The notes beneath the pieces are model-generated. The model saw only the letters and a program-made list of their open reading frames with translations, did no database searches and was not told the origin of the DNA. The translations under genes and the position numbers were made by a program. Shown here in pieces: positions 22,316-63,313 of a stretch of DNA of 64,000 bases. The stretch is from Roseobacter insulae (GTDB lineage Bacteria > Pseudomonadota > Alphaproteobacteria > Rhodobacterales > Rhodobacteraceae). The stretch's first letter is position 1, and the number at the start of each line of letters is the position of its first letter. The DNA lies in NCBI RefSeq assembly GCF_019375555.1, contig NZ_JAHXDN010000005.1, forward strand, positions 124,001-188,000, read 5' to 3'.

Positions 22316-23314
22316 ATGACTCTTATGCAAAAATTCCTCGGTGCCACGGCTGCGCTTGCGCTGTCGGCCGGTGCTGCCATCGCCGATCCGGCGCTGATCT
22401 TCGATCTGGGTGGCAAGTTTGACAAATCCTTCAACGAGTCCGCCTACAACGGCGCACAGCGGTGGGCCGATGAAACCGGTGGCAAATATCTTGAGATCGA
22501 ACTGCAATCCGAAGCGCAGCGCGAACAGGCGCTGCGCCGCTTTGCCGAGGCCGGTGCAAACCCGGTGATCACCACTGGTTTTGCGATGAGCGATCCCATC
22601 GCCCAGGTTGCGCCCGATTATCCGGACACCATTTTTGTTACGATCGACGGCTGGGTGCCCGATCAGGAAAACGTGCTGACCATTGGTTTTGCCGAGCATG
22701 AAGGCTCCTACCTCGTGGGCATGATGGCCGCCATGGCGTCGAAATCCGGCACCGTTGGCTTCATCGGCGGCATGGATGTGCCCTTGATCCGCAAATTTGC
22801 CTGCGGCTATGCACAGGGCGTGAAAGCGGTGAACCCGGACGCGACGGTGATCTCCAACATGACGGGTACAACCCCCGCCGCTTGGAACGACCCCGTGAAA
22901 GGATCTGAACTGACCAAGGCCCAGATCAGCCAGGGCGCTGATGTTGTCTTTGCCGCGGCTGGCGGCACCGGTGTCGGTGTGCTGCAAACCGCTGCTGACG
23001 AAGGCATCCTGTCCGTCGGTGTGGACAGCAACCAGAACCCGCTGCACCCTGGCAAGGTTCTGACCTCCATGCTTAAACGTGTGGATGTCGCGGTCTATGA
23101 CATCATGAAGGCCGGCGATGATGTGAAACCGGGTTTCCGCGCGATGTCCCTTGCGGATGAAGGTGTTGACTATGCGTTGGACGAGAACAATGCGGCCCTG
23201 GTTTCCGACGACATGAAAGCGAAAGTCGATGCCGCCAAGGCGAGCATTGTCGACGGCTCCACCGCCGTGCACGATTATACATCAGATGACAGCTGCCCCG
23301 CTCTGAGCTTCTGA
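22316..23314 (+). CDS. BMP-family ABC transporter substrate-binding protein
   Basis: This 332-residue periplasmic binding protein belongs to the BMP (PnrA/BmpA) family, whose members bind purine nucleosides. The signal peptide covers about residues 1-23 (ending AAIA). The family motif is LGGKFDKSFNESAYNG near residue 31. Further typical segments are FIGGMDVPLIRKFACGYAQGV and GVDSNQNPLHPGKVLTSMLKR. The three following genes encode the matching ATPase and permeases, 2 to 3 bp apart or overlapping, so this is one complete importer operon. Nucleoside specificity is inferred from the family. A purine nucleoside phosphorylase (deoD) is encoded 15 kb downstream. Confidence 0.92.
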   Translation: MTLMQKFLGATAALALSAGAAIADPALIFDLGGKFDKSFNESAYNGAQRWADETGGKYLEIELQSEAQREQALRRFAEAGANPVITTGFAMSDPIAQVAPDYPDTIFVTIDGWVPDQENVLTIGFAEHEGSYLVGMMAAMASKSGTVGFIGGMDVPLIRKFACGYAQGVKAVNPDATVISNMTGTTPAAWNDPVKGSELTKAQISQGADVVFAAAGGTGVGVLQTAADEGILSVGVDSNQNPLHPGKVLTSMLKRVDVAVYDIMKAGDDVKPGFRAMSLADEGVDYALDENNAALVSDDMKAKVDAAKASIVDGSTAVHDYTSDDSCPALSF

Positions 23315-41000: not shown

Positions 41001-41780
41001 TCAGACCCGGCGTTCGACCATCATCTTCTTGATGTTGGCAATCGCCTCGGCAGGGTTCAGGCCCTTGGGGCAGGTCTTGGCGCAATTCATGATGGTGTGG
41101 CAGCGGTAGAGCTTGAACGGGTCTTCCAGATCGTCGAGCCGTTCGCCCGTCGCCTCATCCCGGCTGTCGATGATCCATCGGTAGGCGTGCAGCAAAGCGG
41201 CGGGCCCGAGGTATCGGTCGCCATTCCACCAATAGCTGGGGCAGGAGGTGGAGCAGGAGGCGCACATGACGCATTCATAAAGCCCATCGAGCTTCTTGCG
41301 GTCCTCGATGGATTGCTTCCATTCCTTCGCCGGGCGGTTTGTCTTGGTCTCCAGCCAGGGCATGATACTGGCGTGCTGCGCATAGAAATGCGTGAGGTCG
41401 GGAATAAGGTCCTTGACCACCGGCATATGCGGCAGCGGGTAGATTTTCACGTCGCCCTTGATCTCGTCCATGCCGTAGATACAGGCCAGCGTGTTGATGC
41501 CATCGATGTTCATCGCACAAGAGCCGCAGATGCCCTCGCGGCAGGACCGGCGGAAGGTCAGTGTCGGGTCGATCTCGTTCTTGATCTTGATCAGCGCGTC
41601 CAGAATCATCGGCCCGCAGGCATCCAGATCGACGAAATAAGTGTCCACGCTCGGGTTTTCGCCATCATCCGGGTTCCAGCGGTAAATCTGGAACTTGCGG
41701 AGATTGGTCGCCCCGTCCGGTTTCGGCCAGGTCTTGCCCTTGGTCATGCGGGAGTTCTTGGGAAGCGTCAGTTGAACCAT
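41001..41780 (-). CDS. sdhB: Succinate dehydrogenase iron-sulfur subunit
   Basis: SdhB carries the three iron-sulfur clusters of succinate dehydrogenase (complex II). Of 259 residues, the 2Fe-2S cluster site shows Cys80, Cys85, Cys88 and Cys100 (CREGICGSC ... C). The 4Fe-4S and 3Fe-4S sites are in [16 protein letters not shown] and further C-terminal [17 protein letters not shown]. It is the last gene of the sdh operon, after an inserted FkbM methyltransferase and a lipoprotein gene. The three-base-loop hairpins follow. Confidence 0.97.
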
Positions 41781-41801: not shown

Positions 41802-42131
41802 CTAAAGGGTCTGCAATGCAGCGGGCGCGGCCGCAGTCAGACATTGTTGCGTTCCGGGGCGTGAAAGCACCGCCCGAATGGTGGCTGCGGTCCCCTCGTC
41901 CACGCCGGTGATCGCGTCGGCGGCAAGAGACTGGACTTCGCTCGCATCGGCATTATCCACGATGCAGTTGGTGAAGGGCTGGAAAAGTTGCTTGGGCACC
42001 TGCGGGAAATAGACCGCCAAAGCCTCCGGCAGGATGGATTTCGCGGCGTTGCGCCCGGCTGTGTCCGTTGCCCGTTGCACATCCGCGCAGGCGGCCAGCA
42101 ACAGGAGTGCAGGAAGAAGTAAACGGATCAT
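41802..42131 (-). CDS. Small predicted lipoprotein in the sdh operon
   Basis: This 109-residue protein has a lipoprotein signal with the box LLAAC near residue 15 (IRLLLPALLLLAAC). The mature part is helical and Ala-rich, with Cys residues (NCIVDNAD and QQCLTAAA) near the middle and end that could form a disulfide. It starts with an ATGA overlap on the FkbM gene and ends 21 bp before sdhB, so it belongs to the operon. Similar small genes next to sdhB are seen in roseobacters from memory; the role is not known. Confidence 0.75.
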   Translation of the reverse strand: MIRLLLPALLLLAACADVQRATDTAGRNAAKSILPEALAVYFPQVPKQLFQPFTNCIVDNADASEVQSLAADAITGVDEGTAATIRAVLSRPGTQQCLTAAAPAALQTL

Positions 42132-42823
42132 GATAGCCACCTTGTAAATAAGACATCCATGTAGCGCGGGCGCGCGCGTTTACCGGCGCCAGAGCCGACC
42201 TTGAGCACGTCCCGCCACTCCAGCCCGGCCGCCGCCAGAATGGCAACCGCTTCGGATGGCGCGCCAACACCGGCAAAGCGGTGGGTCAGCGACAGCTCAA
42301 GGATCACGAAGTCGCAGCGTTTCAGAGTATCATGCGCGCCTTTGAGAATTTCCAGTTCGGACCCCTCGGTATCGACTTTCAACCCCGCCCGCCCCGGGTA
42401 GGCCACCGCGATGTCATCCAGTCGCCTGACCGGAACATAATGCTTGTCGGTTTTGGTAAAGCTCTTGGCCAGGGGATCGGTGCGCCGCAACAGGCTGGCC
42501 ATCGCCGTTTCTTCGCCTTTTGCGGAATGCGGCACCATCAAGGTCGCCTTGCCCTCCTGCGCACCAAGCGCGGCGGCGTGAAAATGGAATTCCTTCAGAT
42601 GGCCCTTGGCGCGCACGCGTTCGGCGCTATCCTGTTGCGGATCGATCAGGACGAACTGCGCCTGCGGAAAGCTGCGATACAGCCAGGGCGTTCCGCTGTC
42701 GACACCAACGTCGAACACAACCCCGGGGTCAAAGCCATATCCCCGGAGATACGGCGCACGCGTCTTGATGGGATGGGCCACCATCCCTTCCGATTTCAGC
42801 GTGCGTCGCAGGTCTTGCAGCAT
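42128..42823 (-). CDS. FkbM-family methyltransferase in the sdh operon
   Basis: This 231-residue S-adenosylmethionine-dependent enzyme is of the FkbM type. The nucleotide-binding part starts with VVFDVGVDSGTPWLYRSFPQ near residue 35, followed by FVLIDPQ. The typical LKVDTEGSELEILKGA motif lies near residue 145. FkbM enzymes O-methylate sugars or lipids. It lies 5 bp after sdhA and overlaps the lipoprotein gene by 4 bp, so it is co-transcribed with succinate dehydrogenase. This is an odd place for such an enzyme. Confidence 0.85.
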   Translation of the reverse strand: MLQDLRRTLKSEGMVAHPIKTRAPYLRGYGFDPGVVFDVGVDSGTPWLYRSFPQAQFVLIDPQQDSAERVRAKGHLKEFHFHAAALGAQEGKATLMVPHSAKGEETAMASLLRRTDPLAKSFTKTDKHYVPVRRLDDIAVAYPGRAGLKVDTEGSELEILKGAHDTLKRCDFVILELSLTHRFAGVGAPSEAVAILAAAGLEWRDVLKVGSGAGKRARPRYMDVLFTRWLS

Positions 42824-45072: not shown

Positions 45073-45456
45073 TCAAATCACGGCAATGGTCAAAAGGGTC
45101 AGCAGCACCGAGCCGCCGATCACAGCGTAGCCGAGTTTATAGGCGGTATCGAGGTCAAGGCCGATGCCCTGATCCCAGATCAGGTGCCGCAGGCCCGCCA
45201 GCGCATGATACCACAACCCCCAGAGCGACAGGGTCATCACCAGATCGCCGAACCAGCTGGTCAGCACACCGTCGGCATAGGCGAAATATTCCGGCGAGGT
45301 GGCCGCCGCCAGAAACCACCAGACCACCAGTAAGGACGAGATCAGCAGGGCGTTGCCGGTGATCCGCGTCAGGATCGATGTCATCGAGGTGAGCTGGGGG
45401 CGATAAATCGTCAGATGCGGCGACAGGGGGCGGTTCCCCCGATTTACATCGGCCAT
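45073..45456 (-). CDS. sdhC: Succinate dehydrogenase cytochrome b556 subunit C
   Basis: SdhC is the first gene of the operon. The 127 residues have RPLSPHLTIYRPQLTSMTSIL near the N-terminus, the common SdhC signature with Ser and His at the quinone site, and WYHALAGLRHLIWD with the heme-ligand His. Three membrane segments are seen. The ATG at 45456 was chosen because the family begins ADVNRGNRPLSPH; an earlier start in the same frame is basic and not conserved. The upstream 156 bp hold several palindromes. Confidence 0.95.
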   Translation of the reverse strand: MADVNRGNRPLSPHLTIYRPQLTSMTSILTRITGNALLISSLLVVWWFLAAATSPEYFAYADGVLTSWFGDLVMTLSLWGLWYHALAGLRHLIWDQGIGLDLDTAYKLGYAVIGGSVLLTLLTIAVI

Positions 45457-45551
45457 GATAGATTCCTTTTGTTCCCTGCGTTTCTTTTTACTTCTTATTA
45501 CGGCAATGTCACGCACCTGAACCTTCTCCAGCCGCGGTTATTTGGCACGCT

Positions 45552-45570
45552 TTAAACAAAATTTGTTTAA
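45552..45570. promoter_or_regulatory. TTAAACAAA/TTTGTTTAA dyad upstream of sdhC
   Basis: TTAAACAAA (45552-45560) and TTTGTTTAA (45562-45570) are perfect inverted repeats with one base between. The site is 96-114 bp upstream of sdhC and next to the paired TGTGATCAC element. Its AT-rich sequence suggests a regulator site; the protein is not known. Confidence 0.6.
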
Positions 45571-45578
45571 CGCCACCG

Positions 45579-45612
45579 ATTTGTGATCACGCGCGATCTG
45601 GGTGTGATCACA
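45579..45612. promoter_or_regulatory. Paired TGTGATCAC palindromes upstream of sdhC
   Basis: ATTTGTGATCAC (45579-45590) and GTGTGATCACA (45602-45612) hold two GTGATCAC palindromes, whose starts are 21 bp apart. They lie 123-156 bp upstream of sdhC and end just before the DUF1194 stop. The same pair with the same spacing and nearly the same flanks lies upstream of sucC (53138-53171). Confidence 0.75.
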
Positions 45613-52434: not shown

Positions 52435-52496
52435 GTTGCCAGCTGCATAGAGGGTGCGAGGATTGACATTGCCCTGGCGAGGTGTTCCTTGACGCC

Positions 52497-53087
52497 ATGT
52501 CAAAAAGGCAACTGCCCACCCGCGACCGCATCGTGAAAGCGGCCCTCACCCTGCTGAGCAGCAAGGGAAACAGTGCTGTGCGCCTGTCGGATGTGGCCAG
52601 ACAGGCGGGTGTCAGCCGACAGGCCATCTACCTGCATTTTTCGTCTCGCGCAGACCTTTTCATCGCCGCCACGCAGGCGCTCGACGCTGAACTCGACCTG
52701 GCGGCGATGCTTCACGCCAGCCGCACTGCGGCATCGGGCCGGGATCGTCTGACCGCCTTCGTCTCCGCGTGGTGCAGCTATGTGCCGCAGATCTACTGCG
52801 TGGCACGTCCGCTGATGGATATGGCCCCGCGCGATGCCGAGGCCCATGCCGCTTGGAGCAAGCGCATGAACGACCTGCGCGAAGGCTGCGAGGCTGCGAT
52901 CACAGCGCTGCGCGACGACGATGACCTGCCCCGCAACATGGACCCGGAAACCGCGACGGACACGCTTTGGTCCCTGCTGACCGTACCCAACTGGGAAAAC
53001 CTGGTGGTGACACGCGGCTGGCCACAGGCCAAGTACGAACAAGAGATGGTAAAGACCGCGCAAAGCCTGTTTGTCGCCCCCCGGTGA
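52497..53087 (+). CDS. TetR-family transcriptional regulator
   Basis: This 196-residue regulator has the TetR helix-turn-helix (RLSDVARQAGVSRQAIYLHFSS, about residues 26-47) and a helical ligand domain. It lies between mdh, with its terminator, and sucC, 199 bp before sucC. That gap holds the paired TGTGATCAC element, so it is a candidate for the regulator of the suc and sdh operons. Its own upstream region lacks the element. The ligand is unknown. The start MSKRQLPTRDRIV at 52497 was chosen. Confidence 0.87.
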   Translation: MSKRQLPTRDRIVKAALTLLSSKGNSAVRLSDVARQAGVSRQAIYLHFSSRADLFIAATQALDAELDLAAMLHASRTAASGRDRLTAFVSAWCSYVPQIYCVARPLMDMAPRDAEAHAAWSKRMNDLREGCEAAITALRDDDDLPRNMDPETATDTLWSLLTVPNWENLVVTRGWPQAKYEQEMVKTAQSLFVAPR

Positions 53088-53137: not shown

Positions 53138-53171
53138 ATTTGTGATCACAGCATTTCTGCGTGTGATCACA
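53138..53171. promoter_or_regulatory. Paired TGTGATCACA palindromes upstream of sucC
   Basis: ATTTGTGATCACA (53138-53150) and GTGTGATCACA (53161-53171) hold two perfect 10-bp palindromes, with starts 21 bp apart, two turns of the helix. They lie 116-149 bp upstream of sucC. The pair upstream of sdhC (45579-45612) has the same spacing and shares ATTTGTGATCAC and GTGTGATCACA. Confidence 0.8.
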
Positions 53172-53286
53172 AAATGGGGAATTTGGCCAACTGATGCCCT
53201 CCGTTAGGGAAAACAGGTTCCATACCCTCGCGTTTAGCGCTTTAAATCCTCCAAGAACCGATCCAAACAGCACGGGACCAAACTCC

Positions 53287-54480
53287 ATGAACATCCATGA
53301 ATATCAGGCGAAAGCATTGTTGCGCAGCTACGGGGCACCGGTCTCGGACGGTCGTGTGGTGCTCAGGGCGGAGGAAGCCAAGACAGCCGCGGGCGCGCTG
53401 GACGGGCCGATGTGGGTGGTCAAGGCGCAGATCCACGCAGGTGGTCGCGGCAAGGGCAAATTCAAGGAAGCGGATGCGGGGGACAAGGGCGGCGTACGGC
53501 TGACCAAATCCGTCGAGGAAGCCGCCGAGGAAGCGAAAAAGATGCTGGGCCGCACGCTGGTCACGCATCAGACCGGCCCGACCGGCAAACAGGTCAACCG
53601 CATCTATATCGAAGACGGCTCCGGCATCGAAACCGAACTCTACCTCGCGCTGCTGGTGGATCGCCAGACCAGCCGGGTCAGTTTTGTCTGCTCCACCGAG
53701 GGCGGCATGGACATTGAAGAGGTCGCGGCGGCAACGCCCGAGAAAATCTTGTCATTCTCGGTCGATCCTGCCTCCGGGTACCAGGCGTTTCACGGGCGCC
53801 GCATCGCGTTTTCGCTGGGGCTCCAGGGCAAGCAGGTCAAGCAATGCGTCGGCCTGATGGGGCTCTTGTACAAGGCCTTCATGGAAAAGGACATGGAGAT
53901 GCTGGAGATCAACCCGCTGATCGTGACCGACGGCGGCGATCTGAAGGTGCTCGACGCCAAGGTCAGCTTTGACGGCAATGCGATCTACCGCCACGCCGAT
54001 ATCGCCGAACTGCGCGACGTGACGGAGGAGGACAGCAAGGAGCTGGAGGCTTCGAAATACGATCTCAACTACATCGCGCTTGATGGCGAGATCGGCTGCA
54101 TGGTGAATGGCGCGGGCCTTGCGATGGCGACGATGGACATCATCAAGCTCTACGGGGCGGAGCCTGCCAACTTCCTCGACGTCGGCGGCGGGGCGACCAA
54201 GGAGAAGGTCACCGAAGCCTTCAAGATCATCACCTCCGATCCGAATGTCAAAGGCATCCTGGTGAATATCTTCGGCGGCATCATGCGCTGCGATGTCATC
54301 GCCGAGGGGGTTGTCGCGGCGGTGAAAGAGGTGGGCCTGAAGGTTCCGCTGGTCGTGCGGCTCGAAGGCACCAACGTGCAGCAGGGCAAGGACATCATCA
54401 ACAACTCCGACGTGGATGTGATCGCCGCGGACGACCTGAAAGACGGCGCGCAAAAGATCGTGAAGGCCGTGAAGGGGTGA
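53287..54480 (+). CDS. sucC: Succinyl-CoA synthetase beta subunit
   Basis: SucC is the nucleotide-binding beta subunit of succinyl-CoA ligase. The 397-residue protein starts [15 protein letters not shown] and has the ATP-grasp elements [15 protein letters not shown] near residue 45 and LEINPLIV, and the C-terminal [18 protein letters not shown]. The ATG at 53287 was chosen because all SucC proteins begin here. Unusually, sucD does not follow at once: four other genes and 2.7 kb lie between. Confidence 0.97.
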
Positions 54481-54676: not shown

Positions 54677-55288
54677 ATGACCAACACATCAAAAACAATC
54701 GAAATTCGGAAATCGCGAGCGGCATATCTGGGCTTGGCACTGATTTGCGTCGTGCTGATCGGACTCGCTCATTCGGTGGCAAACGGTGGTATGCTCGACG
54801 ACCCCAGGGGGGGCGCATGGACAATACCATACGGCTGGTTTGGCGTGGTTTTTTTTGGTTCATGCCTCCTTACCGTTCTGAATGACCTTCTTTTCCGGCC
54901 GGCAACGATTCTCAGCCTCTCTCCTTCCGGTCTGCGAGACCTGCGATTCAGCCGCGATGAACTCCCTTGGGCAAGCGTTACAGGTGTCAGGGAATACAAG
55001 CTACTTGGAAGTCGCTGCGTGATTATTAACATCGATCCGGCCGATTTGACGGGCATGAAACTGAGTTGGCGATTTCGGTTTTGGCACAAACCAAATGCCT
55101 TGATAGGCGTGGATGGGGTCTGGGTCACGGCGGTTGGACTCAAGACAAATTTCAATGATTTGTTCTATGATATTTTGGCATATGCCCGAGCCCTCAGCCC
55201 CCACATGCAAATCCCGGGTGCTGAATCAGAATATCCGCCGTCGAGCTCTGCACCGAAAGCCGACCTCCCTGACCGCGAGATTTCTTAA
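54677..55288 (+). CDS. STM3941-like two-TM membrane protein
   Basis: This 203-residue protein has two membrane segments near the N-terminus (about 16-36 and 54-72) and a C-terminal soluble part ([38 protein letters not shown]) like the STM3941/PH-like family of unknown function. The start [15 protein letters not shown] fits the family. Its base composition is lower in GC than that of sucC and sucD on both sides, suggesting acquisition. It sits between a hairpin repeat and a lipoprotein gene. Confidence 0.72.
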
Positions 55289-55323
55289 TGCGTTGCGTGA
55301 CATATCCCCGGTCGGCGGCTGGC

Positions 55324-55836
55324 ATGAAAGGTTTGGCGCTATTGGCCTTCTTTCTCCTCACCGCCTGCTCCGCCGAAGGGGTCTCCCCCGATACGGCGGA
55401 GCTGCGCAACATGTGGCGGGCCAATCTGGTGCCGAAAAGCTCCCCCGCGGTGATGGTCAGCGCCTTTGACCGTTTCTGCGCCATAGGCCCGCGGGATGAT
55501 GCCACGCTGCGCGCCGCTGGCTACGTGCCCCTGCCACAGGAGGTGCCCGGCGCACGCGCCTACGTGATCGACGACCGTCGCCCGGCGGTCGCGGTATCCG
55601 ACAGCATGTGCGTGGTGCAGGCGGAATCGCGCACCGGCCAGACCGCCCGGTTCCGGAATTACATCGCCGCCACCTACCCGGATGCACGGCCCGTCGACCC
55701 CGAACCGCTGGGCCGCAACATCGAACAGGCCTGGTCCGTGGCCTCCGATCCGCCGACGCTGATCGCCACCGAGCGTACCGAAAGCTTCGGCTGGTACCGC
55801 TATGCGCTGATCCTGTTCCAGCCGGGGGCCTCATGA
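55324..55836 (+). CDS. Predicted lipoprotein of unknown function
   Basis: This 170-residue protein has a lipobox LTAC with the modified Cys at residue 15. The mature part has further Cys (RFCAIGPR, SMCVVQ) and a C-terminal sequence SFGWYRYALILFQPG. I do not recognise a domain. GC is high, as in sucC, unlike the gene before. The stop overlaps the next start by four bases (ATGA), so the two are co-translated. It may act at the outer membrane with the next protein. Confidence 0.7.
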   Translation: MKGLALLAFFLLTACSAEGVSPDTAELRNMWRANLVPKSSPAVMVSAFDRFCAIGPRDDATLRAAGYVPLPQEVPGARAYVIDDRRPAVAVSDSMCVVQAESRTGQTARFRNYIAATYPDARPVDPEPLGRNIEQAWSVASDPPTLIATERTESFGWYRYALILFQPGAS

Positions 55837-56315
55837 TCCGAGCGGCTGTCATATGCATAGCGTTCGCCAGCACGGCGGCGGCAGGCTCAGTTGCCGACAG
55901 CGCGATAGCGAGCTTCAACGCAATCTGCTTCAAGGCCGGCCAGACGGCAGCCGAAGCCCGGGCGCGCCTGCAGGGCCGCGACGGAAGCCCACTGCCCTAT
56001 GCCCTGACCTTCTGGGACATCACGCTGGAGCCCGCCCCGGACGCCCCGCCGCAGATCGAGCGCCGCTGCGAAGTGGCCTTTGATGGCGACCACACCGACG
56101 CCGCGATTGCCGCGCTGCGCGCCCAGATGGCGACGCCGCCGGTCTTCGGCTTTGCCATCGCCTTGCCCGCAACCCACGAACCGCTGCCCGGCACCGCGCT
56201 GATCGAAGGACGCGAACTGCTGCGGGGACGGGTCGCGGTGGTGCATGTGGGCCTGCGCGACGGCCGGACCTTCATGGCGGTCGACCGGCTGCCCGCCGGA
56301 TGGGAGGACGGCTGA
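55833..56315 (+). CDS. Exported hypothetical protein
   Basis: This 160-residue protein has a signal peptide (IRAAVICIAFASTAAA, cut near residue 18) and two Cys in the mature part (NAICFKAGQ, RRCEVAF) that may pair. Like the preceding lipoprotein it has a pattern of Cys and short strands, and both could share an origin. I cannot assign a family. The start overlaps the lipoprotein stop by four bases. The methyltransferase gene follows one base after the stop. Confidence 0.68.
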   Translation: MIRAAVICIAFASTAAAGSVADSAIASFNAICFKAGQTAAEARARLQGRDGSPLPYALTFWDITLEPAPDAPPQIERRCEVAFDGDHTDAAIAALRAQMATPPVFGFAIALPATHEPLPGTALIEGRELLRGRVAVVHVGLRDGRTFMAVDRLPAGWEDG

Positions 56316-56316
56316 G

Positions 56317-57114
56317 ATGCTGGATACCGCGCCCCGCCCCTGCCCCTGCTGCTCGGCCACCGATGCGCAGCCCTGGGATCAGTATTCGCCTGACGACTGG
56401 CAGGTGGTTCACTGTGCCGGCTGCAACATGACCTACCTACGCAACCCCGTGGCCTACGAAGCGCTGGAGGAGGATTTTGCCTGGGAAAAGACCTACGAGG
56501 AGAAAAAGGAAACCTCCAGGGGATCCACCGCCCTCAGCCCCGGCATCCGGTCGCTGCGCAAGAAACTGGGCCTGACCCATCGCGACAAGCACGACAAGTA
56601 CCGCGCATGGTTCAGCGATGGCCATGTTCTGGACATCGGCTGCGGTCTGGGCTCCCGCGTGCGCCCGCCGATGACCCCCTACGGCATCGAGCTGTCAAAG
56701 GGCATGCACGCCCAGGCCGATGCCTACATGCGGTCGCATGGCGGGTACTGCGCCCATGGTGCGGGGGCCGAGGCGATCTGGGACTTCGACGCGGGCCAGT
56801 TCGACGGCATCATCATGAATTCCTACCTGGAACATGAGACCGAGGCGATGACCGTGCTGAAAGGCGCGCACCGGGCGCTCAAGGACACGGGCGCGGTCTA
56901 TATTCGCGTGCCCAACTTCGGCTCGATCAACAGGCGGGTCATCGGTGCCAGCTGGTGCGGGTTTCGCTACCCCGACCACGTCAACTATTTCACGCTGGGC
57001 ACGCTGACCGAAACCTGCCGTCGCGCCGGGTTCGCCACCACGCTGGTCAACAGGATCGCCTTGCCCCTGGACGACAACATCACCGTGCTTTTGCACAAGG
57101 CGGGAGCATCATGA
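56317..57114 (+). CDS. Class I SAM methyltransferase with N-terminal zinc ribbon
   Basis: This 265-residue protein starts with a zinc-binding segment (Cys9, Cys12, Cys33, Cys36 in CPCC ... CAGC), as in SAM methyltransferases of the sugar-modifying type. The methyltransferase domain has the motif I VLDIGCGLGS near residue 102. The segment DGIIMNSYLEHETEAMTVLKG and YFTLGTLTETCRRAGF fit C-methyltransferase-like enzymes for surface sugars. The substrate is unknown. It ends 54 bp upstream of sucD. Confidence 0.8.
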   Translation: MLDTAPRPCPCCSATDAQPWDQYSPDDWQVVHCAGCNMTYLRNPVAYEALEEDFAWEKTYEEKKETSRGSTALSPGIRSLRKKLGLTHRDKHDKYRAWFSDGHVLDIGCGLGSRVRPPMTPYGIELSKGMHAQADAYMRSHGGYCAHGAGAEAIWDFDAGQFDGIIMNSYLEHETEAMTVLKGAHRALKDTGAVYIRVPNFGSINRRVIGASWCGFRYPDHVNYFTLGTLTETCRRAGFATTLVNRIALPLDDNITVLLHKAGAS

Positions 57115-57168: not shown

Positions 57169-58056
57169 ATGGCCGTACTTATTGACGAAAACACCCGCGT
57201 GATCTGCCAGGGCCTCACCGGCTCTCAGGGCACGTTCCACACTGAACAGGCCATTGCGTACGGCACCAAGATGGTGGGCGGCGTGACGCCGGGCAAGGGC
57301 GGGCAGACACATCTGGAGCTGCCGGTCTTCAACTCGGTGCATGAGGCCAAGGCGAAAACGCAGGCCAATGCGAGCGTGATCTACGTGCCGCCGCCCTTCG
57401 CCGCCGATTCCATACTGGAGGCCATCGATGCGGAGATGGAGCTCATCGTCTGCATCACCGAAGGCATCCCGGTCCTGGACATGATGACAGTGCAGCGCGC
57501 GCTGGAAGGGTCCAAATCCCGACTGGTCGGGCCGAATTGCCCCGGGGTGATCACACCGGATGCGTGTAAAATCGGCATTATGCCCGGACATATCCACAAG
57601 CGCGGCTCCTGCGGCGTGGTCTCGCGTTCAGGGACTTTGACCTACGAGGCGGTGAAGCAGACCACCGATCTGGGCTACGGCCAGTCATCGGCGGTGGGCA
57701 TCGGCGGTGACCCGATCAAGGGCACCGAGCATATTGACGTTTTGGAAATGTTTCTGGCCGATGACGAGACGCAAAGCATTATCATGATTGGCGAAATCGG
57801 TGGCAGCGCCGAAGAGGATGCAGCGCAGTTCTTGGCGGACGAGAAGAAAAAGGGCCGCTGGAAGCCCACCGCAGGCTTTATCGCCGGCCGCACAGCCCCT
57901 CCCGGCCGCCGCATGGGCCACGCGGGCGCCATCGTCGCCGGCGGCAAAGGCGGTGCCGAAGACAAGATCGACGCCATGCGCGCAGCTGGCATCGTTGTGG
58001 CCGACAGCCCCGCGACGCTGGGCGAAGCTGTGAAAGAGGCGATTGAACGGGGGTGA
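57169..58056 (+). CDS. sucD: Succinyl-CoA synthetase alpha subunit
   Basis: SucD binds CoA and carries the active-site histidine. The 295 residues start with [20 protein letters not shown], and [11 protein letters not shown] and [14 protein letters not shown] with the phosphohistidine near residue 247 are typical. It follows AAAGGGA as ribosome-binding site. It is separated from sucC by 2.7 kb of accessory genes, unlike the usual close sucCD pairing. Confidence 0.97.
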
Positions 58057-58799: not shown

Positions 58800-61757
58800 A
58801 TGACCGAACACTCCCCCAACGACCAGTTCCATGCCTCCTCCTTCATGCAGGGGCACAATGCCGCGTACCTCGAACAGATGTACGCGCGCTATGCATCCGA
58901 CCCCAATGCGGTCGATGACGCCTGGCGGGCCTTCTTCAAGGCGATGGGCGATGATGAGGTCTCGGTCAAGCGTGAGGCGCAAGGCCCCTCCTGGGCGCGC
59001 AGCGACTGGCCGCCGCAGCCGGGCGATGAGATGACCCAGGCGCTCACCGGCGAGTGGGCACCCGAGGCAGAACTCAAGGGCGCAGACAAAAAGATCCGGG
59101 CGAAGGCCGCCGAACAGGGCGTCGCCGTCACCGACGACCAGATCAAACGCGCCGTGCTCGACAGTATCCGCGCACTGATGATCATCCGCGCCTACCGCAT
59201 CCGGGGCCATCTGGTGGCCGATCTCGACCCGCTGGGCATGCGCGAAAACACGCCGCACCCGGAGCTTGACCCGAAATCCTACGGCTTCACCGAGGCCGAT
59301 ATGGACCGGCCCATCTTCATCGACAACGTGCTGGGGCTGGAAACCGCCTCGATGCGCGAAATCCTCTCCATCGTGAACCGCACCTACTGCGGCACCTTCG
59401 CGCTGCAATACATGCATATCTCCAACCCCGAAGAGGCGGGCTGGCTGAAAGAGCGCATCGAGGGGTTCGGCAAGGAGGTCTCCTTCACCCGCGAGGGGCG
59501 CCGCGCGATCCTCAGCAAGCTGGTGGAGGCCGAGGGTTTCGAGAAATTCCTGCACGTCAAATACATGGGTACCAAGCGCTTTGGCCTCGATGGCGGCGAA
59601 AGCCTCGTGCCCGCGATGGAGCAGATCATCAAGCGCGGCGGCGCGCTGGGGGTCAAGGACATCGTGATCGGGATGCCCCACCGCGGGCGGCTCTCGGTGC
59701 TCGCGAACGTGATGGCCAAGCCCTACAAGGCGATTTTCAACGAATTCCAGGGCGGCAGCTTCAAACCCGAAGACGTGGATGGCTCGGGCGATGTGAAATA
59801 CCACCTCGGGGCCTCGTCTGACCGCGAATTCGACGGCAACACCGTGCACCTCAGCCTCACCGCCAACCCCTCGCATCTGGAGGCCGTGAACCCGGTGGTG
59901 CTGGGCAAGGCGCGCGCCAAGCAGGACCAGAACAACGACGATGCGCGCACCTCCGTGATGCCGATCCTGCTGCATGGGGATGCCGCCTTTGCCGGGCAGG
60001 GCGTGGTGGCGGAATGTTTCGCGCTGAGCGGATTGCGCGGCCACAAGGCGGGCGGCACGATGCATATCGTGGTCAACAACCAGATCGGTTTCACCACCGC
60101 GCCGCATTTCTCGCGCTCCTCTCCCTATCCCACCGACAACGCGCTGGTGGTCGAAGCGCCGATCTTCCACGTCAACGGCGACGACCCCGAAGCGGTGGTG
60201 CACGCGGCGAAAGTGGCGACCGAGTTCCGCCAGAAGTTCCGCAAGGACGTGGTGATCGACATTTTCTGCTACCGCCGCTTCGGCCATAACGAAGGCGACG
60301 AGCCGATGTTCACCAACCCGGTGATGTACAAGAAGATCAAAGGGCAAAAGACCACGCTCAGCCTCTATACCGAACGCCTGGTGCGCGACGGGCTGATCCC
60401 CGAGGGCGAGATCGAGGACATGAAAGCCGCGTTCCAGGCCTATATGAACGAGGAGTTCGAGGCCGGAAAGGAATATCGCCCCAACAAGGCGGACTGGCTC
60501 GACGGCAAATGGTCCCATCTGGACAAGCAGAAAAACCAGTACCAGCGGGGCAAGACCGCGATTGCCAAGGCGACTTTCAAGGAGGTCGGCACGGCCCTGT
60601 CCAAGGCACCGGATGGCTTTCCTTTGCACAAGACCGTCGGACGCCTGCTGGAGACCAAGAAGACGATGTTCGACAGCGGCGAAGGCATCGACTGGGCCAC
60701 GGCGGAGGCGCTGGCCTTCGGCTCGCTGCTGACCGAAGGCTACCGCGTGCGGCTTGCCGGTCAGGACAGCACCCGCGGCACCTTCAGTCAGCGCCATTCA
60801 GGTCTGGTCAATCAGGAAACCGAAGAACGCTACTATCCGCTGAACAACATCAAGTCCGGTCAGGCGCATTACGAAGTGATCGACTCGATGCTCAGCGAAT
60901 ATGCGGTGCTGGGTTTCGAGTACGGCTACTCGCTGGCCGAACCCAATGCGCTGACGCTCTGGGAGGCGCAGTTCGGCGATTTCGCCAATGGCGCGCAGAT
61001 CATGTTCGACCAGTTCATCAGCTCCGGCGAAAGCAAATGGCTGCGCATGTCGGGTCTCGTCTGCCTGTTGCCGCATGGCTTCGAGGGGCAAGGGCCGGAG
61101 CACTCCTCCGCCCGGCTGGAACGGTTTTTGCAGATGTGCGGACAGGACAACTGGATCGTGGCCAATTGCACCACGCCCGCGAATTACTTCCACATCCTGC
61201 GGCGGCAGATCCACCGGTCTTTCCGCAAACCGCTGATCCTGATGACGCCGAAGTCGCTACTGCGCCACAAGCTCGCGGTCAGCAAGACGCAGGAATTCAC
61301 CACCGGGTCGAGCTTCCACCGGCTGATGTGGGACGATGCCCAGCAGGGCAATTCCGACACAAAGCTGGTGGCGGACAGCAAGATCAAGCGCGTGGTCATG
61401 TGTTCCGGCAAGGTTTATTACGACCTGCTGGAAGAACGCGACGCACGCGGCATCGACGACATCTACCTGTTGCGCGTCGAGCAGTTCTACCCCTTCCCGG
61501 CGCAATCGGCGGTGAAGGAACTGGAACGCTTCAAACAGGCCGAGGTCGTCTGGTGTCAGGAAGAACCGAAAAACCAGGGGGGCTGGACCTTCATCGAGCC
61601 CAACATCGAATGGGTTCTGGGCCGCATCAAGGCCAAGCACAAACGGCCGGTCTACGTGGGTCGCGCGACCTCGGCTTCCCCGGCCACCGGTCTGGCCAGC
61701 CAGCACAAAGCACAACAAGCGGCGCTCGTGAATGACGCGCTGACACTTCAGAAATAA
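58800..61757 (+). CDS. sucA: 2-oxoglutarate dehydrogenase E1 component
   Basis: SucA (OdhA) is the thiamine-diphosphate E1 that decarboxylates 2-oxoglutarate. The 985-residue protein shows the N-terminal peripheral-core binding segment ([20 protein letters not shown]), then [29 protein letters not shown] with the thiamine-diphosphate Mg site and [13 protein letters not shown]. The C-terminal part closes with [17 protein letters not shown]. It follows a small membrane protein gene by 4 bp and precedes odhB by 20 bp. Confidence 0.97.
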
Positions 61758-61777: not shown

Positions 61778-63313
61778 ATGACCACCGAAGTTCGCGTCCC
61801 CACGCTGGGCGAATCCGTCACCGAAGCCACGGTCGCCACATGGTTCAAAAAGCCCGGTGACACGGTTGCCGTCGATGAAATGCTCTGCGAGCTGGAAACC
61901 GACAAGGTGACGGTCGAGGTGCCCAGCCCGGTTGCCGGTACACTCGACGAAATCGTCGCCGCCGAAGGCGATACGGTGGGCGTTGATGCCCTGCTCGCCA
62001 ATATCTCCGAGGGCGATGCAGGCTCCAAGGCCGCTCCCAAGGGGAAGGAAGCCGCCAAGGAGGCAGAGGCACCCTCCTCGGCCGCGCGCACCGCGTCGGG
62101 CGATGGCGGCGGCGGGTCCGTTGACGTGATGGTGCCGACGCTGGGCGAAAGCGTAACGGAGGCGACCGTCAGCACGTGGTTCAAGAAGGTCGGCGACAGC
62201 GTTGCCGCGGATGAGATGCTCTGCGAGCTGGAAACCGACAAGGTCAGCGTCGAGGTGCCTGCCCCCGCCGCCGGCACGCTCACCGAGATCCTCGCCCCCG
62301 AAGGCACAACCATCGAAGCAGGCGGCAAGCTTGCGGTCATGAGCCAGAGAGAGGGGGCGGCCGCCGCACCCGCCAAGCCGTCCGAGGCCCCTGCCGCGGC
62401 CCCGGCGGGCTCGGGCAGCGGCGCGGATGTCGAGGACGCACCCTCTGCCAAGAAAGCGATGGCCGAGGCCGGGGTCAGCCGCGATCAGGTCACCGGCTCG
62501 GGCCGCGATGGCCGCGTGATGAAGGAAGACGTGAATGCCGCCATTGCAGCCGCCAGCGCCGCCCCCGCACCTGCGGCGGCGGCACCGCGCGCGCCCGTGG
62601 CTGCGGATGATGCGGCCCGCGAGGAGCGGGTCAAGATGACCCGCCTGCGTCAGACCATCGCCAAGCGTCTGAAGGACAGCCAGAACACCGCCGCGATGCT
62701 CACCACCTATAACGAGGTGGACATGACCGAGGTCATGGCGCTGCGCACTGAATACAAGGACCTGTTCCTGAAAAAGCATGGCGTCAAGCTGGGCTTCATG
62801 TCCTTCTTCACCAAGGCCTGCTGCCACGCGCTGAAAGAGGTGCCGGAAGTCAATGCCGAGATCGACGGCACGGATATCGTCTACAAGAACTTCGTGCATA
62901 TGGGCATCGCGGCGGGCACGCCGACGGGTCTCGTGGTGCCGGTCATTCGCGACGCCGATGCGATGAGCTTTGCCGCCATCGAGAAGGCGATTGCCGAGAA
63001 AGGCGCCCGCGCCCGCGATGGCAAACTATCGATGGCTGAAATGCAGGGCGGCACCTTCACCATCTCCAACGGCGGGGTCTACGGCTCGCTGATGTCCTCG
63101 CCGATCCTGAACCCGCCGCAATCCGGGATCCTCGGCATGCACAAGATCCAGGACCGCCCGATGGCGATTGGCGGCGAAGTGGTGATCCGCCCGATGATGT
63201 ATCTTGCCTTGAGCTACGACCACCGCATCGTCGACGGCAAGGGCGCTGTGACGTTCCTGGTGCGGGTGAAAGAGGCGCTGGAAGATCCGCGCCGGCTGCT
63301 GATGGATTTGTAA
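61778..63313 (+). CDS. sucB: Dihydrolipoyl succinyltransferase E2 with two lipoyl domains
   Basis: SucB (OdhB) is the E2 of 2-oxoglutarate dehydrogenase. The 511-residue protein has two lipoyl domains in tandem, with the lipoylated Lys43 and Lys155 (both in ELETDKV). A subunit-binding domain spans about residues 218-253 ([20 protein letters not shown]). The catalytic domain ends with SYDHRIVDG (Asp481-His482). Two lipoyl domains are more than the single one of E. coli SucB (405 residues). Ala/Pro-rich linkers join the parts. Confidence 0.96.

Follow-up and report, generated by a model that had tools for sequence, protein, structure and literature searches.

The window, i.e., the whole stretch of 64,000 nucleotides of the Roseobacter insulae genome that was analysed (contig NZ_JAHXDN010000005.1, positions 124,001 to 188,000), carries genes of two TCA-cycle operons. 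On the reverse strand, sdhC (45073..45456; Pfam domain Sdh_cyt in the frame 45073-45516, with the ATG placed from the sequence) encodes the cytochrome subunit of succinate dehydrogenase and is the first gene of the sdh operon, and on the forward strand, sucC (53287..54480; Pfam domains ATP-grasp_2 and Ligase_CoA) encodes succinyl-CoA synthetase beta and is the first gene of the suc operon. Downstream of sucC and in the same direction are found sucD (57169..58056, +; CoA_binding and Ligase_CoA), sucA for 2-oxoglutarate dehydrogenase E1 (58800-61757, +; 2-oxoglutarate dehydrogenase domains) and sucB for the E2 component (61778-63313, +; acyltransferase domains), and a TetR-family gene (52482..53087, +) is located between mdh and the suc operator. 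Note that both operons appear to have received insertions, namely an FkbM-type methyltransferase frame (42128-42823, -) that separates sdhA from an sdhB-like gene (41001-41780) in the sdh operon, and frames at 54677-57114 (+), including a methyltransferase (56245-57114), between sucC and sucD in the suc operon.

Twin palindromes upstream of sdhC and sucC

Each operon is preceded by two copies of the palindrome GTGATCAC, arranged as GTGATCAC-N13-GTGATCAC, at 53142..53170 on the forward strand for sucC (copies starting at 53142 and 53163) and at 45583..45611 on the reverse strand for sdhC (copies starting at 45583 and 45604). The original prediction had placed both sites correctly, together with the start-to-start distance of 21 bp at both operons and the 11 bp between the 10-mers, which correspond to 13 bp between the GTGATCAC 8-mers; its operator-to-start-codon distance of 116-156 bp came close, since we found 116 bp to the ATG of sucC at 53287 and 126 bp to the ATG of sdhC at 45456. 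The other copies in the window lie only in coding sequence, as had been noticed earlier: GTGATCAC occurs at 22565 within a 332-aa frame (22316-23314) and at 57547 within sucD.

At the scale of the 4.88-Mb genome, exact GTGATCAC doubles with any spacer of 8-16 bp occur twice, at the sdhC and sucC sites only, when 0.007 would be expected from a composition-only estimate, and the reversed control pattern gave none. With the spacer fixed at 13 and up to two mismatches allowed, 12 matches were obtained, the two exact ones included. Within the window, single copies of the 10-mer were not clearly enriched when two mismatches at most were allowed (30 occurrences vs 23.4 expected, with 7 of 100 shuffles as high). 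Perfect copies of TGTGATCACA number four in the genome, three of which belong to the operators of the window, and the fourth is located 8 bp before the ATG of a gene for a 216-aa GntR/FCD protein.

Conservation and putative targets of the double operator

The pair proved to be conserved upstream of sdhC and sucC in related genomes, a conservation on which the original prediction had staked its case. Indeed, the exact double (spacer 8-16) was identified in 267 of the 295 genomes of the window's family, which the named-genome scan suggests to be Rhodobacteraceae in the broad sense, and the reversed control was found in none of the 295. A class-wide scan recovered the double in 15 of 385 genomes, five of them from the window's family, leaving 10 of 380 others, and its reversed control matched in one genome (G367, at 6 places) and in none of the rest. 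Among these 10 genomes outside the family, some have GC-rich spacers resembling coding chance, which is not the case for G308, G440, G405 and G669. Because the double is present in 267/295 genomes of the family vs 10/380 other genomes of the class, the double operator is largely a trait of the window's family. We give no credence to the idea that the pairs are chance repeats: a single palindrome with mismatches stays near chance level in the window, but two exact doubles stand against the 0.007 expected in the genome, and the conservation across the family, set against its empty reversed control, rules chance out.

Most of the examined doubles sit before sdh or suc. A first classification by downstream gene counted 72 doubles upstream of sucC and 52 upstream of sdh, and the enlarged locus set, in which spacers of 12 and 13 alone were counted, comprised 202 pair records, of which 112 belong to suc and 90 to sdh (19 records with spacer 12 and 183 with spacer 13, each of three triple operators counting as two pairs). 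One double at sdh together with one at suc was found in 48 of the 59 family genomes with at least one double retrieved; the remaining 11 include genomes with a single double or with one not retrieved, as well as G177, which combines sdh with sucA. The named-genome scan, restricted to spacers 12-14, yielded at least 126 doubles on at least 120 stretches; among those listed, 92 were at sdh or suc and 34 elsewhere, and 29 of the latter came from organisms outside the window's family. Three of the 34 (L148, L181 and L186) adjoin mdh, with sucC either not seen or lying beyond the locus boundary, and two listed doubles (L175 and L178) belong to neither the sdh/suc nor the mdh group. Within the family, G042 has a third double upstream of class II fumarase (L025, G042:C16:228293), and the sucA double of G177 (L029, G177:C4:93432) lies upstream of the 2-oxoglutarate dehydrogenase E1 gene, which suggests a wider TCA regulon in some genomes.

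As a side observation, the two loci examined among the class-wide matches outside the family (L100 in G308 and L101 in G440, from one genus of family f15) contain GTGATCAC doubles with spacers of 14 and 13, respectively, that precede apparent TonB-dependent receptor genes, as judged by eye from the sequence. L101 also encodes, divergently from the double, a distant GntR protein (29% identity). These loci may possibly represent a second use of the paired motif.

Operator spacing and helical phasing

The distance within the pair is strictly kept, with a spacer of 13 in 156 of 173 sdh/suc doubles and of 12 in the other 17; classifying allowed 8-16, with the loci from the named-genome scan confined to 12-14. 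In three genomes from three genera (L366 in G285, L367 in G135 and L368 in G191), the sucC operator is a triple of GTGATCAC whose palindromes are exactly 21 bp apart. As a rule, however, the 112 suc and 90 sdh pair records have no further palindrome at the -21 register.

The position of the operator relative to the sdh promoter was expressed as an offset, counted from the last operator base up to the G of GTGAC, the promoter elements being deduced from conservation. Anchoring the sdh loci on GTGAC revealed (C)GTGAC(A), followed 16 bp after the hexamer by T and A, each conserved in 88% of 67 loci. All 77 placeable loci of the 90 (13 lacked a match; pair records with identical flanks were merged, and the first [CGT]GTGAC from base 35 onward was taken) fell into the classes 48 (1 locus), 57-60 (61 loci), 68-70 (7 loci) and 78-80 (8 loci), with no value between the classes, which are separated by about one helical turn. 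In a motif-model version of this analysis (52 loci, 3 of them scoring weakly), 14 of the 16 minority offsets deviated from whole turns by no more than 1.5 bp. A tree built from 75 SdhC proteins, with few columns and many forks open, requires at least four changes for the class around 69 and at least five for the class around 79, across well-supported branches; these repeated changes mean that the offset classes are not one inherited state. As an example, the window has an offset of 70, and its neighbour on the SdhC tree, from G187, belongs to the 58 class. Such whole-turn-only offsets are the trace that would be expected from face-dependent action from upstream.

In the window itself, the putative -35 element of sdh (GTGACA, 45507..45512, -) starts 70 bases after the operator, and the TA of the putative -10 element starts at 45490 (-), both placed by conservation. 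Counted from this -10 element, the palindrome centres would lie ~109-110 and ~130 bp upstream of the sdh transcription start, and at an offset of 58 the centre of the nearer palindrome would lie ~97 bp upstream. A near-perfect palindrome, TTAAACAAAATTTGTTTAA, is also present at 45552-45570 between the sdh operator and this promoter, and is possibly the site of another regulator. The sucC promoter is placed less firmly than the sdh promoter: of 96 loci, 56 have a conserved TTTA-like element at offsets 45-48, 19 have it at another offset and 21 gave no score, so that its distribution is scattered, with a peak at 47, one turn short of the main sdh class. Its equivalent in the window (53218..53223, +; offset 47) has the letters TTCCAT, for which the promoter assignment is weak.

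A GntR/FCD protein as candidate regulator and its proposed mode of action

The original prediction, in which one regulator recognizes palindromes in register and co-regulates sdh and suc, stands in these respects, and fails in its choice of the neighbouring TetR protein as that regulator. We regard it as very unlikely that this protein binds both double palindromes and co-regulates the two operons. Its gene adjoins the sucC operator, and dimeric TetR proteins often bind nearby palindromes, but few genomes of the family have relatives: at E<=1e-20, a match (34-53% identical) was found in only 23 of 295 genomes, the own genome included, vs 267 with the double, and at the same cut-off none was found in the same-genus genome G266, which has two doubles. 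Moreover, the double shows no association with TetR (19 of 23 genomes with a match vs 248 of 272 without; p=0.25), and the fourth perfect site of the genome sits at a GntR gene. The TetR candidate is therefore not supported.

The GntR/FCD protein preceded by this fourth site (216 aa, G000:C12:465404-466051), encoded on another contig than the window, is a far better candidate than TetR because of its self-site and of its presence/absence link with the double. It combines a helix-turn-helix with an FCD domain (PF00392 and PF07729 above cut-offs). Of the genome's 18 genes with an FCD domain, no other has GTGATCAC or a perfect TGTGATCACA close to the start codon region; a 10-mer with one mismatch is found there in a single further gene. 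Among 50 orthologous GntR genes examined, 44 have the GTGATCAC self-site just before the start, namely all 30 nearest orthologs and 14 of 20 more distant ones (72-78% identical), which were chosen manually among the lowest of the matches listed; the exact self-site was not found in the other six of these 20. In 33 of the 44 orthologs, a TTGA[CT] element precedes the self-site, with exactly 18 bp from start to start, which would put the -10 region and the last part of the spacer under the palindrome.

The double was present in 260 of 265 genomes with a strong GntR match (cut at E=1e-70, a value set after the table was seen) vs 7 of 30 without, and absent from the other 23 of these 30 (Fisher p=1.7e-23, in a test that ignores relatedness). 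Among the five genomes with a strong match and without an exact double, G040 and G291 keep a one-mismatch double at sucC and the other three are assemblies of 71, 73 and 92% completeness; the exact self-site was found in none of the five. Note that a search of 22 genomes with three mismatches allowed gave mostly chance matches; from it, only the best locus per genome was used. In two weak-match genomes (G033 and G122), the protein is diverged (46-51% identity) and its gene has a perfect self-site, and in two genomes with no double the best GntR match looks broken, ending at residue 99 of 216 in one (L263, G109) and showing internal stops in the other (L260, G157). Conversely, the double is kept in six genomes that have no clear ortholog (G019, G096, G114, G256, G264 and G273), one of them called 100% complete. 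The GntR gene is located ~8-14 kb from a double in G033, G081, G154, G208, G274 and G294, and the locus numbers RSP_0966-0981 suggest a like proximity in R. sphaeroides, whereas the window's genome has the gene on another contig.

RSP_0981, a GntR regulator of Rhodobacter (Cereibacter) sphaeroides, is reportedly AkgR. In the published passages available, RSP_0981 is predicted to control sucCD, sdh and 2-oxoglutarate dehydrogenase (PMC4344238), GTGATCAC is mentioned among the AkgR binding sites and AkgR is termed an activator (PMC6365646). The candidate resembles this regulator, as far as these passages describe it, in belonging to the GntR family and in having GTGATCAC at targets and at its own gene; the predicted targets also correspond, since here, by site, the doubles lie at sdhC and sucC with sucD, sucA and sucB downstream. 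On the basis of this match in motif and targets to the published statements, the operator most likely belongs to the AkgR regulon and the candidate would be of AkgR type. The system described here differs from these accounts by the strict pair (a triple in three genomes), the 21-bp register, the phase relative to the sdh promoter and the single self-site. We found no paired sites or helical phasing for AkgR in the available parts of the literature on the regulator, its motif and its targets; literature matches for TGTGATCACA and, among those listed, for GTGATCAC were mainly unrelated human, plant and viral ones.

Altogether, the operator is real and conserved, its assignment to a known kind of regulator is well supported, and we consider it very probable that the twin palindromes are AkgR-type operators at which paired dimers on one face of the DNA activate sdh and suc, a single dimer repressing akgR. 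Indeed, the 21-bp register of two turns and the whole-turn sdh offsets can be read as two dimers on one face. Two neighbouring AkgR dimers, separated by two helical turns, would thus occupy the DNA upstream of each promoter (sdhC and sucC) and would act on RNA polymerase from there to activate both operons, and the single self-site, overlapping the akgR promoter, would allow AkgR to repress its own gene. The sites with their spacing, conservation and helical phasing, the self-site and the link between gene and sites can be seen in the sequences, whereas AkgR binding and dimer-dimer contact are what we infer from this arrangement; the predicted direction of regulation, i.e., activation, comes from published statements, the available part of PMC6365646 calling AkgR an activator, and the upstream, phased position of the operator fits activation of the target genes.

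Two other readings of the same sites were considered. GntR/FCD proteins are commonly repressors, and the AkgR-type self-site overlaps the putative promoter of its own gene, so the sites could be AkgR operators that serve as repressor sites, by looping or occlusion, at sdh and suc in the window's lineage. We hold this to be unlikely, since the sdh operator is found 48-80 bp before the -35 element and keeps its helical phase with it, an arrangement that fits upstream activation better than occlusion (looping could be phased too), and AkgR is termed an activator in the part of PMC6365646 available. Somewhat less probable still is that another GntR/FCD paralog, or a regulator sharing GTGATCAC, mainly occupies the sdh and suc operators, with the akgR-like protein mainly regulating itself. 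The 18 FCD-domain matches in the own genome, the six genomes that keep the double without a clear ortholog, the distant GntR (29% identity) beside a double in a genome of another family, and GTGATCAC as the proposed site of a distant Pseudomonas GntR protein (PMC6365646, from the part available) would speak for it, but GTGATCAC lies near the start of none of the 17 other FCD genes, and the self-site, like the presence/absence link, speaks for the 216-aa GntR protein.

Returning to activation by paired AkgR dimers, the pairs, triples and single self-sites may be generalized further: there is about an even chance that AkgR works as an array of one-face dimers, with two at the TCA targets, three at sucC in some lineages and one at its own gene, in which the number of dimers separates activation (two to three) from self-repression (one) and the sdh promoter shifts by whole turns only. 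If so, natural genomes would record a face-of-helix rule. The present results provide a likely regulator for two core operons of the TCA cycle throughout the window's family and describe the operator as a paired unit with strict two-turn spacing, and the whole-turn-only variation between operator and promoter would serve as a natural experiment on whether a GntR/FCD protein activates in a face-dependent manner. These details of architecture (pairing, triples and phasing) lift the operator above routine, and we make no claim that they are unpublished.

Class I upstream activators such as CRP, when bound at distal sites, activate from upstream in a manner that depends on the face of the helix. 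The arrangement proposed here would be alike in this respect, with another protein family and two to three adjacent palindromes at a 21-bp register. According to the available part of PMC6365646, the GntR-like protein PS417_07240 of the Pseudomonas simiae deoxyribonate cluster is 32% identical to AkgR and has GTGATCAC as its proposed site at -47 to -40 from its own start codon; it thus shares the palindrome before its own gene and differs by having one described site and by its role in deoxyribonate catabolism. CceR of R. sphaeroides and Paracoccus denitrificans belongs to the LacI family. In R. sphaeroides, sdh is among the central carbon genes under its control (PMC4344238, PMC11323563, in the parts available), and its motif is [A/G/T]GTT N6-8 AAC[A/C/T] (PMC4344238); it has sdh control in common with the present system, and its family and motif differ from those of the GTGATCAC site. 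Finally, AGCGCTAA-type palindromes were seen by eye downstream of the operator at sucC in some genomes (L006 and L007), and these resemble the RSP_1663 (CceR) motif GTT N6-8 AAC as given in the available part of PMC4344238.
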